Virus record (IMG/VR): IMGVR_UViG_3300037041_001101
Coordinates: 1-64,000 of that record
Source of the DNA: a virus
Strand: one strand, 5' to 3'
Length of the DNA: 64,000 nt
Each line of letters begins with the position of its first letter. Position 1 is the stretch's first letter. The notes under the pieces were generated by a model, which was not told the DNA's origin, did no database searches, and saw only the letters and a program-made list of their open reading frames with translations. The translations under genes and the position numbers were made by a program. Shown in pieces: positions 111 to 15,007 of the stretch.

Positions 111-3100
111 ATTTGACACAGCTTATAAGAAATATTTTAACTTAGCTGGTGAAGCAGAAGCAAGGAACACACAAGCAAGACATATGTTGTCTGAAGAAGA
201 AAGAAAAACAACGTCCCCATTATCTACATTGGATGTTTCTCCGGAAGAATATACAAACGTCGGTGAAGAAGAAGCTGATATTGTAGAAAGCAAAGAAGGT
301 GTAAAATACTCTTTATCTCCACGTGGAGAGCAAGGCCTAGCGTCTACTGAAGCGAGACGTGAGGCGGCTACACCTGCACCTAAAGTTAAGACACCAAGAA
401 CAACCGGTGAGAGTATCACACGTGGTATCGATATATTAGAGACCAGTCTGACCTCTTACGACTCAGCATGGATTAACAAGTTACGAAGAGATCTTGTTAA
501 ATCAGGTCTACCTGTTGAATCTATAACCAAACTGATGCTAAAAGCATCTCAGTCTCAAACCGTACATGCAGGCTCAGTGGCTGCTCAAGGGACGATACGC
601 GGTGGGTTAAAGAAGAACGACGTTACCGAGAAATGGGAAGCGTTTGATGTTGATAATAAGATGCCAAACGTGCGTCTTATGTTAGACGATATCGCTAAAG
701 ATAATGATAAGACATTCAAGCAAGTGGCAAATCAGTTCGGTGACATCATGGTTGCTAGTCGTATCTTCGAGCTTCGACAAAGACCTGCTCAGATTAAAGA
801 GAAGATCGATAGAGCAGATGAACGTATTGAAGCCGTCTCTAAAAAGATCGAAGAGCAAACCAGTGCTGAAGTTAAGATTGAGTTAAGAAAAGAGAAAGCA
901 AAAGAAGAGCGTATCAAAAAGAGTTTAGAAAAGAAGTACAAGAAAGCGTTAGACTTAGCTAACAATCAACACTTATCGGTAGAACAAGTTCAAGAACAAT
1001 TAGATGTGTTAGAGGATCATCCTGAGTATAAGAAACCGATGAACGAGTGGCGAGCAATTCGTAAGAATATGGTTGAGTTTTTGTTTGAAACTGAACGCTA
1101 CTCAAAAGCGCAAGCTGAGGCTTACCTTGACGCGATTGCGTACGTTCCATTCAATCGTATTATGGAGCAGAAAGATCCTGAAGCAGCCTATGCTACGATG
1201 TCACAAGGCCATGGTAAAGCGTCTGCTGGTCTTACTAAAGGTCAAACTGAATATGGTATAAAAGGATCGCTTAAAGAAGTCGATGATACGGTAACCAACA
1301 TGGAAAAGTGGGTTATGAATAGTTTTGTTAAAGGGATTAACGCATCTAAAGCACGTGAGTTGATGCAACTCTCTTTAACGAATATGCCTGAAGGTACGGT
1401 AACAGAACTAGGAACTAACCCTAAGAACAAAGAAGGTGCGGTTAATGTCTATTATAACGGTAAGAAATATTATTTCCGTTATGCTGATCCGTTACTTCCT
1501 TTTTGTTTTAACGGTGTCAATCCTGTCGCACTACCTGCTCTAAAGTTCGGTGCGAAGTTTGCGAACAAGTTAAGACAGTTCATCGTATTGAATCCTTTGT
1601 TCACTGTATCTCAGTTGCCTCAAGATACGTTCTCAGCGATGTTCTCATCTGGGTTGAGAAATCCTTTTATGTTGCCTTTTGAAACGCTAAAAGAGTTTGG
1701 TAAAACTTTAGCGAGCACATCGGCTACCCATGAGAAACTAAAAGGACGGGGTGTTGTTGGGCAGAGAGATTTCATGGATGATGTCACCAAGAGCATCCAT
1801 GATATTGCGTACAATCAACACTCGGAAACAAAAGGCGTTGGTGCCAGTATCTTAAGAGGTCTTAATCATTTCTCTATGGCAGGTGATAACGCGTTGCGTC
1901 AAGCCATCTATAACAGAACGATGAAAGAGCTTAAGAACAGACCGGATGCCGATGCGATAGCTACCGAACGAGCCTTAGAAGTGATTAACTTCCGTAGACG
2001 TGGTGCAAGTGCTACTGCCGATATGATACGTCAGGTTACTCCGTTCTTAGGTGCATACCTGCAAGCGCAACGCGTTGCGTTTAACACCTTGTCAGGACGA
2101 GGTATAGCCCCGTCAGAACGCAAAGAAGCATTAGCAACACTAGCACTCACCACTGCTCAAGTTATCGCTATGACGTTCGTTTATAACGGTCTGTTAGATG
2201 ATGACGATGAGTTTAAAAAGAAGAACGCGAGAGAAAAAGATACTCGACTCTTCCTAATGGGATCTAAAGCTAACTTCACTATGCCACTACGACCTGATGT
2301 GTTCTCATTCCCGTTCGTGTTAGGCAACCACGCGTATCGCGCTATGCTCGATAAGGGTACTGAGAATCCAGAAGTCGCAAGACGAGCAATGAAAGATGCG
2401 TTCTTAGCGGCAGTGGTGGGTATGCCGATGGGTCCTACGATTATCAAACCTATCGTAGAAGTTGCAATCGATCATGATTGGTTTACAGGAAGAAGTCTTA
2501 TTCCTCAAAGGCTAGAAGGTTTTGATAAAGAACTTCAATACACAGATGGCACATCCGAGATCGCTAAGATGTTGGGCAAAACCGGTTATATTTCTCCAAT
2601 AGCAGTTGATCATTTGGTAAAAGGCTTCTTTGGTTATGTGGGTGGAGCAACTCTAAGTTTAACCGATATAGCGTTACGCGCATCGATGGATCTTCCTTAC
2701 GCGAGCAAAGCTGTGTACGGTAAAGATATCAATGATATACCTGGCATATCTCCACTCTACGCAAGAGAAAACAAACCGCAAATTATTGATAGCTTTTTTA
2801 AATTCAATGCGGAGGTTGATAAAACTCACCGCACATATAGTGAATATAAGAAGACTGGAAGACGAGAAGAAGCGAGAGAGTATAAAACAGAAGGCCTTAA
2901 CAAACTGTTGCTGAACGACAGAGTTCGTAAAGACTTGCACCACATGTCAACTAAGGTGAGTGATCTGAAAGAGAAACGAAGAAAGATAATGGAGACACCT
3001 AATGAAAGGATATCTCCAGAAGCTAAGAAAGAAAGAGTTGATAAGATTGATGAACGTATCTTACACGTGATTAAGAACATAGATCGACTGCAAGGTCGGG

Positions 3101-3111
3101 TGTACAAATAA
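1..3111 (+). CDS. Giant polyvalent virion/ejection protein, C-terminal part (5' incomplete)
   Basis: The frame is open back to base 1; the first ATG is at 184, but in-frame sequence before it (FNLAGEAEARN at about 139-171) matches the conserved lead-in to the last domain of phage 'large polyvalent proteins', so 184 is not the true start. Counting from 184, residues about 205-275 form a charged coiled coil and about 450-850 are hydrophobic and helical, resembling the LPD38-type domain that ends these proteins. Such proteins are several thousand residues long, are carried in the virion and enter the cell with the DNA. It is probably the end of the gene that starts at 61681. The first 20 or so codons lie in the palindrome and are unreliable. 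A terminator follows directly. Confidence 0.8.
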   Translation, partial: SFFLSSPNDCISLYFSLAIATEKYKEIQSLGEERKKLFDTAYKKYFNLAGEAEARNTQARHMLSEEERKTTSPLSTLDVSPEEYTNVGEEEADIVESKEGVKYSLSPRGEQGLASTEARREAATPAPKVKTPRTTGESITRGIDILETSLTSYDSAWINKLRRDLVKSGLPVESITKLMLKASQSQTVHAGSVAAQGTIRGGLKKNDVTEKWEAFDVDNKMPNVRLMLDDIAKDNDKTFKQVANQFGDIMVASRIFELRQRPAQIKEKIDRADERIEAVSKKIEEQTSAEVKIELRKEKAKEERIKKSLEKKYKKALDLANNQHLSVEQVQEQLDVLEDHPEYKKPMNEWRAIRKNMVEFLFETERYSKAQAEAYLDAIAYVPFNRIMEQKDPEAAYATMSQGHGKASAGLTKGQTEYGIKGSLKEVDDTVTNMEKWVMNSFVKGINASKARELMQLSLTNMPEGTVTELGTNPKNKEGAVNVYYNGKKYYFRYADPLLPFCFNGVNPVALPALKFGAKFANKLRQFIVLNPLFTVSQLPQDTFSAMFSSGLRNPFMLPFETLKEFGKTLASTSATHEKLKGRGVVGQRDFMDDVTKSIHDIAYNQHSETKGVGASILRGLNHFSMAGDNALRQAIYNRTMKELKNRPDADAIATERALEVINFRRRGASATADMIRQVTPFLGAYLQAQRVAFNTLSGRGIAPSERKEALATLALTTAQVIAMTFVYNGLLDDDDEFKKKNAREKDTRLFLMGSKANFTMPLRPDVFSFPFVLGNHAYRAMLDKGTENPEVARRAMKDAFLAAVVGMPMGPTIIKPIVEVAIDHDWFTGRSLIPQRLEGFDKELQYTDGTSEIAKMLGKTGYISPIAVDHLVKGFFGYVGGATLSLTDIALRASMDLPYASKAVYGKDINDIPGISPLYARENKPQIIDSFFKFNAEVDKTHRTYSEYKKTGRREEAREYKTEGLNKLLLNDRVRKDLHHMSTKVSDLKEKRRKIMETPNERISPEAKKERVDKIDERILHVIKNIDRLQGRVYK

Positions 3112-3117
3112 AACTGA

Positions 3118-3137
3118 GGGGTCGAAAGACCCCTTTT
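3118..3137 (+). terminator. Rho-independent terminator after the late operon
   Basis: Stem GGGGTC / GACCCC with a GAAA tetraloop (3118-3133) followed by TTTT. It lies 7 bp after the stop of the polyvalent gene and 7 bp before the convergent minus-strand operon ends, so it closes the late transcript. Confidence 0.9.
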
Positions 3138-3143
3138 CTTTAC

Positions 3144-3314
3144 TCAAATTTCATCGTAGGCTTCTTCGTGCTCATCCTCGGTATACACATAAAAACGAGA
3201 GACATACACGAATAGCCATGTGAACGCCCAACCCTCCTCATCACTGGTAATCCAAGGGAAGATGCCCCAATTACTGATGTGCCGTACACCCCATTCCCAC
3301 ATGATAAAAGTCAT
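3144..3314 (-). CDS. Small hypothetical protein (56 aa)
   Basis: Unrecognised. Its ATG overlaps the thyX stop in an ATGA arrangement, which supports translation by coupling. The product is rich in Trp and aromatic residues in its first two thirds and ends in an acidic Glu/Asp tail. It is the last gene of the leftward operon and ends just before the convergent terminator. Confidence 0.6.
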   Translation of the reverse strand: MTFIMWEWGVRHISNWGIFPWITSDEEGWAFTWLFVYVSRFYVYTEDEHEEAYDEI

Positions 3315-3877
3315 TCTGATTCTCCGAAGATAAGTGGTGCTACTGCTTGCAGTTGACGTTGGATTTCTAGTGCAACTTCTCGCACCTCAGATTGCGCAGA
3401 AGGTGTACTCCTTAGTTTGATGAAATCGCGTAGTGCTTGATAATTACCTGTCATGTACAACTCTGTTTCCTGCGCCTGTGGTAAGAAATAACGCGCGTCT
3501 TGTTTGCTCATTCCGTCAGCACGTAGCTCGTCGTATAAATCTTTGGCATCAGAATTATGACTGTGTATCTTTATCTTGCTGGTCGCGCTGAGTTTATCAA
3601 AACCTTCAGGTAGAATGAACTCGGCATCCGACTCATCACAGTAGCGCGAACTGCGTACAAGGTAAGATAAGTGAACACTCCTTGTTAACTGAGCGAGGCA
3701 TACACGACTGATTCCTTCAATTTTAAATACAGCCATGCCGAAACGCAAACAACTTAAATGCCCAACGTCAATTATGTGTTTTAATCTTTTCTCGTCATTC
3801 CCTTCTCGCCCATAACAGATACCTGAGTATTTCCCAATCAATATTGGATCTGTATATTGCTCTAAAGTTACTTTCAT
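3311..3877 (-). CDS. thyX: Flavin-dependent thymidylate synthase ThyX
   Basis: ThyX methylates dUMP to dTMP using methylene-tetrahydrofolate, NAD(P)H and FAD. The protein (188 aa) is close to the usual size. The C-terminal half is typical: ARYFLPQAQ, then TGNYQALRDFIKLR, then AQSEVREVA. The flavin-binding signature is altered: where family members read RHR followed seven residues later by Ser, this reads RSVHLSYLVRSSRY, so the His and second Arg are replaced by Ser and Val. I place the start at the ATG at 3877, which overlaps the stop of the upstream small gene (ATGA); an in-frame GTG lies 9 bp upstream. With dcd nearby it forms a dTTP supply module. Confidence 0.9.
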   Translation of the reverse strand: MKVTLEQYTDPILIGKYSGICYGREGNDEKRLKHIIDVGHLSCLRFGMAVFKIEGISRVCLAQLTRSVHLSYLVRSSRYCDESDAEFILPEGFDKLSATSKIKIHSHNSDAKDLYDELRADGMSKQDARYFLPQAQETELYMTGNYQALRDFIKLRSTPSAQSEVREVALEIQRQLQAVAPLIFGESE

Positions 3878-4023: not shown

Positions 4024-4516
4024 CTTTGTTCTCGATCCAGAAGTTGTGATACTGCCGTTTTGCGGCTATATAAGCTGTTGAAGCTTCTTCGGCAGTATTG
4101 AAAAGTCCAAGGTGTTTGCTTTTACCGTTGAGCATTATTTGGGCTCGCCATTTTTTACTTGGCGTATACCAACTGACTCCTAATAACCCACAACCATTAG
4201 TCTTGTACGGTTTCGATTTGTTATGCTGATTTTGTTGCTCTGTTGCGACACGTAAATTGACAATAGAATTATCTCTCGGATTTTCATTTTTGTGATCTAA
4301 AAATGTTTCTGGAAATTCCCCATGTATATATAACCATGCTAGACGATGGGCTCGATATTTTTTGCGGTCAATTTCAATATTAATATAACCAGAAGCATGT
4401 TTACTTCCGGCAATAGAACCTTTCTTTGCAGTGCTGCTTCTTTGCGTAAGATTAGTGAAGATTCCCGTATCTGGATCGTAATGTAAAATTTGTTTTAGTT
4501 TTTCTTGTGTAAGCAT
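4016..4516 (-). CDS. HNH homing endonuclease with AP2 DNA-binding domain
   Basis: A free-standing homing endonuclease of the HNH/AP2 type (166 aa). The order is a short N-terminal region (YDPDTGIFTNL), an HNH core of the HNH_3 type (HRLAWLYIHGEFP, LDHKNENPRDNSIVNLR), and a C-terminal AP2-like domain (GLLGVSWYTPSKKWRAQI, then HLGLFNTAEEASTAY). Such proteins cut a DNA site and spread their own gene. The start at 4516 is chosen because a strong GGAGG lies 8 bp upstream; an in-frame start 42 bp further up lacks one. It sits between DUF3310 and thyX as an insert in the operon. Confidence 0.9.
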   Translation of the reverse strand: MLTQEKLKQILHYDPDTGIFTNLTQRSSTAKKGSIAGSKHASGYINIEIDRKKYRAHRLAWLYIHGEFPETFLDHKNENPRDNSIVNLRVATEQQNQHNKSKPYKTNGCGLLGVSWYTPSKKWRAQIMLNGKSKHLGLFNTAEEASTAYIAAKRQYHNFWIENKDD

Positions 4517-11720: not shown

Positions 11721-11883
11721 TGAGTTCACCTATTAGGTTATCCAATCTGTATTTTAAACTCTCAGGCATTTCGTTCTCCTCTTGAAAAACAGTGGCTGTT
11801 ACTCTACCTTCTGGAACCCAATCATGAGAGAAATAAATATCATTCATCTCTTCTACAAAAACTTTAAATTCAAGCCTTGTCAT
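11713..11883 (-). CDS. Small acidic hypothetical protein (56 aa)
   Basis: Overlaps the polymerase C-part by 14 bp and the VRR-NUC start by 8 bp. MTRLEFKVFVEEM at the N-terminus is followed by an acidic body. Unrecognised. Confidence 0.55.
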   Translation of the reverse strand: MTRLEFKVFVEEMNDIYFSHDWVPEGRVTATVFQEENEMPESLKYRLDNLIGELSA

Positions 11884-12280
11884 ATCCCACCTCTTTCAAT
11901 AATTCGTTAGCCATACTGATGTACACCGGATAATCCACATCTTGAGGGAAGATGTCCGGTAGATCCATTAACGGTCTTGCGCCACCAGACATTGGCACTC
12001 GGTTTGAGTTCTTCGCGTAGTGTATGCATGTTTCTTTATCAACCTCAGACGAGTAGTAAAAGCGTACTGCCTTACCAAGGTAGCCACCTTGCCATGTTGC
12101 TCCACCTGTCACCTTACGCACTGTGACGAACTGGGTGATGTCTTTGCATGCCATAATTGTTTGTTCAATTGGGACGTTACGCGCCACGCAATACGCAACC
12201 GCTTTCTGTACGATCGAACAGTTCGGGTTCTTAGCAAGGCCTGTGGGTGCAAAGATACCTTTGCCTTTGTATTTAATCAT
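11870..12280 (-). CDS. Family B DNA polymerase, C-terminal part (split gene)
   Basis: This 136-aa product is not an independent enzyme: KYKGKGIFAPTGLAKNPNC, then VTVRKVTGGATWQGGYLGKAVRFYYS, and the closing ISMANELLKEVGY match the thumb and end of phage family B polymerases and continue where the part at 12939-14402 stops. An in-frame TAA directly precedes the ATG, so it must be translated on its own. AGGAG 8 bp upstream, inside the endonuclease gene, provides the ribosome binding site. The two parts presumably associate into one working polymerase. Confidence 0.85.
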   Translation of the reverse strand: MIKYKGKGIFAPTGLAKNPNCSIVQKAVAYCVARNVPIEQTIMACKDITQFVTVRKVTGGATWQGGYLGKAVRFYYSSEVDKETCIHYAKNSNRVPMSGGARPLMDLPDIFPQDVDYPVYISMANELLKEVGYDKA

Positions 12281-12923
12281 TTATTTTTCTCCTAATAACT
12301 CTAAAACCTTTACAAAAAACATCATCAGACTTTCTTCTATGAAAATTGGATAAAACTGTTTGTAAATTTAACTCAACTAAACCTTTGTAATTAACAATTG
12401 TTTCTACACTGTCTTTAATGACAACATATTCGTATTTAGTTAGCGTTTTTGATAACAGTTTTGATTGTGTATCTTTTCGATAAGTATTATTTTTCCAATT
12501 ATCTTTTAACTTTTCCCCATGTAAGGAACGAAGTCCGTTTGACCATTCTTTTTTTAACCTGTTTGATATTTTTTTTGAAGTTTTTTCATGAGTTATCATA
12601 CCCTCTGGACAATCTCTTCTTAAGTTGTAACCAAAAACATCATCACATGTTTTTAAACTTTCAATCCAAAAAAATTCCTTTTCAAAAAGAAATTCTTCTG
12701 AGCATTCTTCCAATGTTATAAAATTAAAATTTTCAAATCCAAATTTCTCCATATCATACAAAAGATCATTGTTCATATGATTCAATCTTTTATTTTTAAA
12801 ATCAAGTTTATATGATGTAAATCTGTTGGAAAAATTTTTAGTTTTACCCACATAAATTTTTCCGTTTATAAGATTTAAAACACCATATATTCCGCTTTTG
12901 TTTTTATTACATTTAAATATCAT
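12273..12923 (-). CDS. GIY-YIG homing endonuclease splitting the DNA polymerase gene
   Basis: The catalytic domain is at the N-terminus: SGIYGVLNLINGKIYVGKTKNFSNR holds the GIY and YVG motifs with the expected spacing and the catalytic Arg. The catalytic Glu is probably in the FEKEFFWIE segment. The C-terminus is Lys-rich with likely DNA-binding repeats. The gene lies between the two parts of the polymerase with 16 bp upstream and an 8-bp overlap downstream, so no intron core fits around it. It is markedly more AT-rich than its neighbours, consistent with recent arrival. Its end carries the ribosome binding site of the polymerase C-part. Confidence 0.92.
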   Translation of the reverse strand: MIFKCNKNKSGIYGVLNLINGKIYVGKTKNFSNRFTSYKLDFKNKRLNHMNNDLLYDMEKFGFENFNFITLEECSEEFLFEKEFFWIESLKTCDDVFGYNLRRDCPEGMITHEKTSKKISNRLKKEWSNGLRSLHGEKLKDNWKNNTYRKDTQSKLLSKTLTKYEYVVIKDSVETIVNYKGLVELNLQTVLSNFHRRKSDDVFCKGFRVIRRKIND

Positions 12924-12938
12924 ATTGCCGCCATATAG

Positions 12939-14402
12939 TTATTTGTATACAGCAATATAATTGTTTACGTTTAAAAAAGCAATAGATTTATATTCTTTTA
13001 CTTCAAGTTGATAGCCTGTGGTTAATTCCCAATCGAAAGAAACCTCTTCACATTTATCTCTGATAGTATTTTTACCATAACAAACAATACCATCCGTGTT
13101 GGCTGACATAACAGAAATACCAGCGTCTTCCATTGCTTCAATTAACACGAGTAAACAAAGCTGACCTGTGATTGTAGTTTGTAATAATAATTCTGGCGCA
13201 TAGAGAGCACTGTATTTTGACCCTAGCTTCCCGAACGAACCATTACATGCTATTTTTTTAACATCTGATTCTGTTTTATACTTTAGAAGTTCTGATTTTA
13301 TAGATTTTATCTCAGATTCTTTTCCTTTTTCCTTTTCCAAACCGTCTATTATTGTTTCTAATTCGTCAATCTTCTTCTTTGCGAAATTTCTTTCTTCAAC
13401 AATCTTTTTGTAAATCTTTAAAAAAGGTTTACCCATGTTTTTAGGTGCTAACTTTTGTTGTAAAATGATACTCGGATAGTAGCCACGAACGTCCCGCTCG
13501 ATCAAGAACCATCCCTCTTTCGCCTCTATATACTGCGACTTCTCACACGAGTGTAGACCACCGATACCCATCTGATACTTGCGGCCGCTGATCTTAATGT
13601 CTTCTTTCTTTAACCAGTCCGGTAGCACTAGCGCACCGTTGACACCCAAGGTGAACGGTTCTTTGATAACACGTGCTAAGATGTTGTTCAACTGCTCGCT
13701 CTTGAAGGAGACGATCTCAGGGTCTTGATAATAGAACTTCGCATCGTCAGCGACCGTAGGTCTAGAAGGTTTCTTACCGGTAATCTTTTGCAGTTCGCTG
13801 GAGATAACCGTCTCGGCAATCTGAGCATCTGACTTAGAGCGCAAGTCCATACCGTACTGCTCAGTCATTGACTCGCGTAGCGTGATCTGAGGGATGAGTG
13901 CTTGGTAGAGTTCTTGTGTGGTCTGTAAGTCGTTCTCGCAATACTTTCTTAGCTCTTCTCGTTGCTCTGGTGAGATCAATGCGGAAGGTTCGATAGGTAA
14001 GTCTTGTAATTTCTTTGAGTGTAGCCTTCCACCGTAGATCTTCAAGGAAGACATACCAGGTGCTACTTCGATAAGATCAATATGATCCCATTTTGGACAG
14101 GGTAGGTTATTATCTTGGTAAGTCCTATACGCTGATCGGTTTGATCCGATAATAGAATCGCATAGCTTTTTTATTTGCGCATTGTTCCATCCAGACATAG
14201 CTGCCACGATGATCGGTAAGTCAAAGTTGTTACCGTTGAAACTGATCGTGGTGTTCTTACGCATGATATTGGAAAGAACTGCTAGATCTAGCGGTTGGTC
14301 TTCGTGCAACTCAAGGTGGATGATTTTACCTGTCTCTACACATTTAGCCGCGAAGAGAAAGTAGTTGGAGTAGATCTCTGTATCGATGATTATCTTTTTC
14401 AT
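12939..14402 (-). CDS. Family B DNA polymerase, N-terminal part (exonuclease and palm/fingers)
   Basis: Replicative polymerase part (487 aa). The 3'-5' exonuclease motifs are present: IIIDTE (Exo I, D7/E9), FNGNNFD (Exo II, D61) and YCENDLQTTQ (Exo III). Polymerase motif A is DVRGYYPSII (near 304), motif B is KIACNGSFGKLGSKY (near 386) and motif C is a variant, SANTDGIV (near 436). It stops at NNYIAVYK, where the family continues with a KGKG-type segment that is found instead at the start of the product at 11870-12280. The start at 14402 has AAGGA 7 bp upstream; an in-frame ATG 27 bp earlier lacks one. Confidence 0.9.
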   Translation of the reverse strand: MKKIIIDTEIYSNYFLFAAKCVETGKIIHLELHEDQPLDLAVLSNIMRKNTTISFNGNNFDLPIIVAAMSGWNNAQIKKLCDSIIGSNRSAYRTYQDNNLPCPKWDHIDLIEVAPGMSSLKIYGGRLHSKKLQDLPIEPSALISPEQREELRKYCENDLQTTQELYQALIPQITLRESMTEQYGMDLRSKSDAQIAETVISSELQKITGKKPSRPTVADDAKFYYQDPEIVSFKSEQLNNILARVIKEPFTLGVNGALVLPDWLKKEDIKISGRKYQMGIGGLHSCEKSQYIEAKEGWFLIERDVRGYYPSIILQQKLAPKNMGKPFLKIYKKIVEERNFAKKKIDELETIIDGLEKEKGKESEIKSIKSELLKYKTESDVKKIACNGSFGKLGSKYSALYAPELLLQTTITGQLCLLVLIEAMEDAGISVMSANTDGIVCYGKNTIRDKCEEVSFDWELTTGYQLEVKEYKSIAFLNVNNYIAVYK

Positions 14403-14425: not shown

Positions 14426-15007
14426 TCAATTATTTAGTTTGTAAACGTATGTTATTTTACCAGCAGTTTTCTTATAAGTCGCTTCTCCGTTTTCAATTGC
14501 TTCTTTTAATCGTTTTGCAAAGGGTTTTAATTCACCCTTATATTTTGTCCTGACAGCTTTATCATGGTATTGCTTATCATTCCAAAGAATAACTTTTGCT
14601 CCAGGTTTCTTACCTAAACATTCAAAGTTTGATGCTTTATATATTGTTCCCTCATGCCCATACTCCATATCAGCGTAGCTAACTATTACTTTCAAATCTG
14701 TATTCTTCTTTAACCATCGAAGCATACCACCTATAAAATAACTTTCTGTATTTTTAGGTGTATCGTCTATGCAACATAATCTTCTAAGTTCTATACAATC
14801 ACTTTCCTTATCGGCAAATCTTTTCCATTGATTCGCCATTGCCATCCTACCAAAAAATGCTGCTCCAATTATTTCAAAACCATTTGTTAGTTTAAAACAA
14901 TAATCGGTCATGCAACCATTGATGGATTTTGAGTAGTGATGTTCTTCTATAAACTTAACAATATCTTTTCGTTCGCATCGTTCTATTTTAAATTCTTTTA
15001 CTTTCAT
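14426..15007 (-). CDS. Mom-like DNA modification / GNAT-fold protein (193 aa)
   Basis: Resembles the phage Mom-type family: an N-terminal HHYSKSINGC segment, a central IELRRLCCIDDTPKNTESYFIGGMLRWLKK and VSYADMEYGHEGTIYKASNF. Mu Mom changes adenine to a carbamoyl-methyl form and protects phage DNA from restriction. By family this protein could do the same or use another acyl donor; the reaction is not shown here. The ribosome binding site (AAGGA, then ACATAAA) is nearly identical to that of the polymerase gene just downstream. Confidence 0.7.
   Translation of the reverse strand: MKVKEFKIERCERKDIVKFIEEHHYSKSINGCMTDYCFKLTNGFEIIGAAFFGRMAMANQWKRFADKESDCIELRRLCCIDDTPKNTESYFIGGMLRWLKKNTDLKVIVSYADMEYGHEGTIYKASNFECLGKKPGAKVILWNDKQYHDKAVRTKYKGELKPFAKRLKEAIENGEATYKKTAGKITYVYKLNN

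Follow-up and report, generated by a model that had tools for sequence, protein, structure and literature searches.

A viral family B DNA polymerase encoded in two parts, with a GIY-YIG endonuclease gene between them at the position of a β-hairpin turn

Introduction

It is already known that essential phage genes, that of a family B DNA polymerase included, can be split by free-standing endonucleases. A close described case is gene 43 of Aeromonas phage 25, in which 43A and 43B flank seg43 and whose split products, as summarized in PMC2988022 (citing Petrov et al., 2006), copurify and are active. The split in phage 25 may predate the endonuclease, and related 43B/gene 43 genes contain group I introns (PMC2993671). 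In phage Aeh1, nrdA is split by mobE, and the two polypeptides yield an active enzyme (PMC2988022). Split polymerases with a small ORF of unknown function have also been reported in OM43 phages (PMC10580990).

The locus described here lies in a stretch of 64,000 nucleotides of viral DNA, hereafter the window (positions 1 to 64,000 of IMG/VR record IMGVR_UViG_3300037041_001101). It is a further case of such a split, in another polymerase family.

Organization of the locus

The polymerase is encoded by two open reading frames, polN and polC, with a third frame between them (Table 1). The frame of polN starts with an ATG at 14402, stops with a TAA at 12939–12941 and ends in NNYIAVYK, while that of polC starts with an ATG at 12280–12278 and ends at 11870. 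Both match the same PHROG profile, polN at positions 53–507 of phrog_1252 (E=2.3e-142) and polC at positions 512–655 (E=2.9e-32), so that the two are consecutive parts of PHROG_1252 and cover the family end to end. Read from the sequence, polN has the exonuclease motifs DTE, NGNNFD, and YxxxD, polymerase motifs A (DVRGYYPS), B (KKIACNGSFGK), and C (NTDG), and a KxY-type strand, NNYIAV. The exonuclease, motifs A, B, and C, and the KxY-type strand expected of a family B enzyme are thus all found across polN and polC, and all of the catalytic motifs are intact. The Pfam model PF00136 scored below threshold for the window polymerase; as it misses this family, PHROG_1252 and a profile of our own were used for the polymerase searches.

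The middle frame matches Pfam PF01541 (E=7.3e-9, 36.3 bits against a cut-off of 22.6). The residues characteristic of the GIY-YIG domain are present (GIY at 11–13, YVG at 24–26, R34, E83, and N100) and are kept in five to seven relatives; domain and catalytic residues together place the protein among GIY-YIG endonucleases of the homing type. It is the only GIY-YIG gene in the 65-kb record. A scan of viral contigs with the single endonuclease sequence gave no match, relatives being recovered with an alignment as query, and an AlphaFold model of the endonuclease was set aside for its low pTM (0.48).

A preliminary description of this DNA had proposed a polymerase split around a GIY-YIG gene, and the split is real: polN and polC belong to one family, and the middle frame exceeds the Pfam cut-off. 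The exonuclease and motifs A–C do lie in a single gene ending in NNYIAVYK. An in-frame TAA (12283–12281) immediately precedes the polC ATG, and the AGGAG lies within the endonuclease gene, both as described. The 8-bp overlap after the endonuclease was also correct, but the gap before it is 15 nt (12938–12924) and not 16. The endonuclease gene fills the insert, which is coding sequence throughout. The arrangement goes far beyond what chance would give: independent phages have the same gene order at the same polymerase position.

Table 1. Positions of the features discussed; window coordinates unless a relative is named
Feature	Position	Strand	Basis or remark
polN, 487 aa; part of a family B DNA polymerase with the 3'-5' exonuclease, the palm and the fingers	12939..14402	(-)	phrog_1252 match and motifs
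GIY-YIG homing-endonuclease-type gene, 216 aa	12273..12923	(-)	Pfam PF01541
polC, 136 aa, with its own start codon; covers the end of the palm, and the thumb	11870..12280	(-)	phrog_1252 match and identity to L001
15-nt gap, polN stop to endonuclease start	12924..12938	(-)	
8-bp overlap, endonuclease stop with polC start	12273..12280	(-)	
AGGAG, ribosome-binding-type sequence for polC, within the endonuclease gene	12289..12293	(-)	8 nt upstream of the polC ATG
Target-like copy 1 (AACAATTATATTGC), polymerase codons NNYIA	12952..12965	(-)	
Target-like copy 2 (AATAACTATATGGC), element-borne leader motif, holds the polN stop TAA	12930..12943	(-)	
AT-rich mosaic tract, polymerase residues ~291–487 (palm and fingers)	12942..13532	(-)	~64% aa identity to L001
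GIY-YIG inserts at the fingers site	L004 3102–3838; L009 3836–4599; L012 3150–3909		

The unsplit sister and the site of the break

The nearest relative of the window, L001, encodes one uninterrupted polymerase of 592 aa, whose amino acid identity to the window is 78% over polN and 92% over polC; in a tree of 85 polymerases the two pair with full support. At the site, L001 reads DVNNYIAVKTDGKIKGKG, and the window reads NVNNYIAVYK-stop and M-IKYKGKG. The window thus has an endonuclease gene between two frames of an essential enzyme that is unsplit in relatives.

An AlphaFold model of the L001 polymerase built from 27 unsplit sequences (mean pLDDT 91.9, pTM 0.87) resembles solved family B polymerases (Tgo, Z 16; E. 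coli Pol II, Z 14.5; KOD also). In this model the break sits exactly in a surface turn, the four residues 458–461 between the strands 452–457 and 462–465. A profile match aligned the strand-turn-strand hairpin with KKNYFGVYQDGKVDIKG of the 1s5j polymerase, and we take the hairpin to be the KxY motif and the turn that follows it, at the palm–thumb border of family B enzymes. An alignment with an unsplit homologue, which the preliminary description had named as a check, was made with L001; one or two turn residues at most are missing at the junction. The model and the comparison with relatives support the suggestion, made earlier from the window's letters, that the split point lies in a tolerant loop.

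The polN gene is mosaic relative to L001. Its exonuclease part and the thumb part in polC, on either side of the tract listed in Table 1, are 90–97% identical to L001 at the amino acid level; the tract itself is far less so and stops at the insertion, where its final 17 residues show 88% identity to the split polymerase of L011 and 53% to that of L001. Such a pattern would be expected if flanking sequence had been transferred along with a homing endonuclease. A donor resembling L011 is indicated by the last ~100 bp of the tract only, and the recombinant could be L001 instead of the window.

Immediately upstream of polN is an AT-rich gene for a Mom-like DNA modification protein (14426–15007, minus strand; Pfam Mom, E=2.9e-34). 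The starts of this gene and of polN share a near-identical leader of ~20 bp (ATCAAGGAACATAAAATG), as if the ribosome-binding region had been duplicated when the Mom-like gene was inserted. L001 has a terminator-like sequence immediately before its polymerase. A promoter scan returned sites no more frequently than in shuffled sequence.

Recurrence of the split

The same turn is split in several other phages. In L011, an endonuclease 61% identical to that of the window occupies the turn, and both the 8-bp overlap and the stop ahead of the ATG are as in the window. Related GIY-YIG genes are also found there in L142, L030, the Klebsiella phages KpTRp1 and KpTDp1 (45% identity to the window endonuclease), and the Acinetobacter phage phiAB441. 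Five Klebsiella Jedunavirus isolates (JD001, FZ14, KpV79, JustaPhage, and BUCT791) are split at this turn by an endonuclease of another architecture, in which zinc ribbons in the N-terminal region are combined with a GIY-YIG domain of the T5orf172 type at the C-terminal end. Near relatives are unsplit, namely KpV52, RCIP0080, and the E. coli phage CWW26; CWW26 and the split KpTRp1 are 87% identical in DNA over their shared parts. In all same-site cases examined, the endonuclease gene ends at, or overlaps, the start of polC, and polC has a start codon of its own in all nine splits examined, several with a ribosome-binding-type sequence. GenBank lists the parts of the split Jedunavirus polymerases as genes of their own, labelled DNA polymerase or hypothetical. 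For JD001 (L119), the RefSeq record annotates only the last 63 aa of the endonuclease, whose frame (2586–3416) is intact; the idea that it is a decayed copy, the split having outlived its endonuclease, was rejected on that ground.

A second split site lies in the fingers just before motif B and was found in L004, L009, L012, L181, L183, L184, and L199. The endonucleases there belong to another GIY-YIG subfamily, and there too the endonuclease gene runs up to, or overlaps, the start of the polymerase part downstream of it. The 85-polymerase tree calls for at least seven changes at the thumb turn and at least four at the fingers site, these counts being approximate, as the tree was a quick one with some long branches. 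Judged from these comparisons, the thumb-turn split arose repeatedly in related phages, cultured ones included. Mobility of the endonuclease is likewise supported, indirectly, by the unsplit L001, the filling of the same site in unrelated backbones, the number of changes in the tree, and the pattern of the flanks.

Some further arrangements were noted. In Flavobacterium phage Fpv1 (L110, 2168–5235), two annotated polymerase genes flank a homing endonuclease whose relatives include the fingers-site subfamily, with the break at motif A (profile position 308); an intron and a split gene are both possible there. In L031 (1–1068) and L034 (30–3115), relatives of the window endonuclease lie directly downstream of apparent T7-type family A polymerases, a likeness that rests on a C-terminal NW.xCH read by eye.

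Weighing of alternatives

It could be supposed that the split killed the polymerase, leaving a gene in decay, with replication entrusted to a polymerase of the host or of a helper. As a viral contig the record may be incomplete, so that such a polymerase is possible. Some split polymerases could also be decaying: L011 has an in-frame deletion of 3 bp in motif B near 4060, removing one residue (NGFGKL vs NGSFGKL of relatives), which could be a sequencing error, decay, or a real change. Against this supposition, the catalytic motifs of the window are all intact, and selection on polC is strong. Between the window and L001, polC gives a dN of 0.047 and a dS of 0.74, and two Jedunavirus polC genes, both from split polymerases, give 0.085 and 0.79; these substitution rates point to purifying selection on a maintained protein. 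The 65-kb record holds no second polymerase among those searched for (PHROG_1252 or family B, family A, and bacterial Pol III); an intact one elsewhere in the genome had been named in the preliminary description as evidence that would tell against the split. Finally, plaque-forming Klebsiella phages have the same split. We consider loss of the polymerase improbable.

Less probable still is a reading of the insert as a group I intron (or as a twintron-like derivative of one) with an embedded endonuclease, the polymerase message being spliced. The proposal has a real basis in the relatives. Group I introns interrupt polymerase genes in crAss-like and other phages (L028, 3689–4713; L032, 2893–3264 and 3776–4662), and those at DV|NNY, a few codons upstream of the window break, hold homologues of the window endonuclease, as seen by Rfam in crAssphage cr3_1 and L032 (L032 having another intron at motif A); L027 and L033 share that layout and the motif GATATAGTCC. 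For the window, however, a permissive Rfam search of 801 bases (12200–13000) gave no match to the group I intron model RF00028 at E≤10, whereas the same mode recovered the two halves of the cr3_1 intron at E=1.5e-9 and 3e-4, unusual introns being ones that Rfam can miss. The window search was repeated on this short stretch because a run on eight loci together had missed the cr3_1 intron, which a short-stretch run caught. Moreover, the insert is coding between its 15-nt gap and its 8-bp overlap, and each of the nine same-site polC genes examined has a start codon. The earlier statement that there is no room for an intron core agrees with this all-coding insert. The proposal of a split gene that yields two polypeptides without splicing is supported by the unsplit L001, the structure model, the lack of detectable intron or intein, and the cultured phages that share the split.

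Rejoining of the parts is the least credible of these readings: ribosomal bypassing during translation would have to span ~660 nt, far above the 50 nt bypassed in T4 gene 60. A split intein acting after translation has a precedent, with an HNH endonuclease, in PolB of phage MIJ3 (PMC6892783), but in the window no intein or split intein domains were found, and since no more than about two residues of polN and polC lie beyond the polymerase homology there is no space for intein halves.

Target-like copies in the element

The polymerase codons NNYIA at the end of polN (copy 1) are followed, 22 bp away, by a similar sequence in the leader of the endonuclease gene (copy 2), in which the polN stop lies out of frame. 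L011 and L030 have the same 22-bp register, and KpTRp1 and L142 show it more weakly; the repeat is absent from phiAB441 and from the T5orf172-type splits, which served as a control. The probability of such a repeat by chance was 4e-4 in the window, 2e-4 in L011, and below 5e-5 in L030. The motif AAYAAYTAYATNGC is also present ahead of an endonuclease relative in L031, a phage with no PHROG_1252 polymerase in its 90-kb record, and it lies inside the L032 intron just before the endonuclease. The leader copy may be an insertion scar, or a mimic of the homing site that serves as an operator. The use of a homing-site mimic as operator is familiar from I-TevI.

Discussion

It is very likely that a mobile GIY-YIG gene was inserted in a family B polymerase gene at the turn of the KxY hairpin, that the message is left unspliced and its two polypeptides reassemble into a working polymerase, and that the endonuclease spreads by cutting unsplit genes. 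On this account, a homing endonuclease gene would have entered the replicative polymerase gene at the β-hairpin turn on the palm–thumb border, giving an unspliced message with three cistrons (polN, endonuclease, and polC). Translation of polC would begin inside the end of the endonuclease gene, aided by the AGGAG and probably coupled to translation of the endonuclease. The two products would then reassemble non-covalently, as a dimer in the window phage, into one working polymerase, helped by a break that falls in a surface turn and costs almost no residue. The endonuclease would cut at the conserved DVNNYIAV codons of unsplit polymerase genes, and the repair that follows would copy in the endonuclease along with flanking polymerase sequence; the polymerase would survive because the turn is tolerant and because polC can be translated from a start in the end of the endonuclease gene. 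As Klebsiella and Acinetobacter isolates with the same split replicate, such split polymerases very probably function, and the window polymerase very probably works as two pieces.

A broader proposal is offered tentatively, and we hold it to be possible but doubtful: that free-standing endonucleases of different kinds repeatedly enter the gene at the KxY β-turn and there break the polymerase into two working subunits, that the window-type element bears its own target codons (AAYAAYTAYATNGC) in its leader as an operator or homing-site mimic, and that the element moved from a free-standing form into the adjacent group I introns. The last step is suggested by the persistence of the AAYAAYTAYATNGC copy in the L032 intron and in L031.

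Several consequences follow for the study of these enzymes. A replicative family B polymerase tolerates a break of its chain at one precise turn, repeatedly and with at least two endonuclease architectures, with unsplit neighbors near at hand. The conversion of one protein into a two-subunit enzyme by a mobile element is directly testable in cultured phages, and, for the engineering of polymerases in two parts, the turn is a split site supplied by nature. The same few codons also link intron-encoded with free-standing members of a single endonuclease family. In the papers searched, no description was found of one β-turn hit repeatedly, in scattered phages, by two endonuclease architectures and with introns a few codons off, nor of an element-borne copy of the polymerase target sequence.

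Comparison with known systems

The preliminary description likened the locus to nrdA of Aeh1 split by MobE. The likeness is apt for the way of working, as both have a free-standing endonuclease in an essential gene that is left as two ORFs. However, MobE is an HNH endonuclease, in a ribonucleotide reductase gene, whereas the window enzyme is a GIY-YIG protein in a DNA polymerase gene and so is not a member of the MobE family; gene 43 of phage 25 and the Jedunavirus polymerases are closer. As in the window, the replicative family B polymerase of phage 25 is divided between two genes, and an endonuclease gene, there of the seg type, lies at the split (PMC2988022). Phage 25 differs in that its polymerase is a T4-like gp43, of another polymerase family; in the window, unlike in phage 25, the endonuclease is the entire insert. 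The endonuclease of crAssphage cr3_1 is homologous to that of the window (30% identity) and lies near the same DVNNY codons, but it is nested in a group I intron about five codons upstream of the window split.

For the split Jedunavirus polymerases, no paper discussing the split was found in searches that missed most subscription journals. These Klebsiella phages (KpTRp1, KpTDp1, JD001, FZ14, KpV79, JustaPhage, and BUCT791) share with the window both the polymerase family and the split turn, although in JD001, FZ14, KpV79, JustaPhage, and BUCT791, unlike in the window, the endonuclease is of the zinc-ribbon and T5orf172 type.
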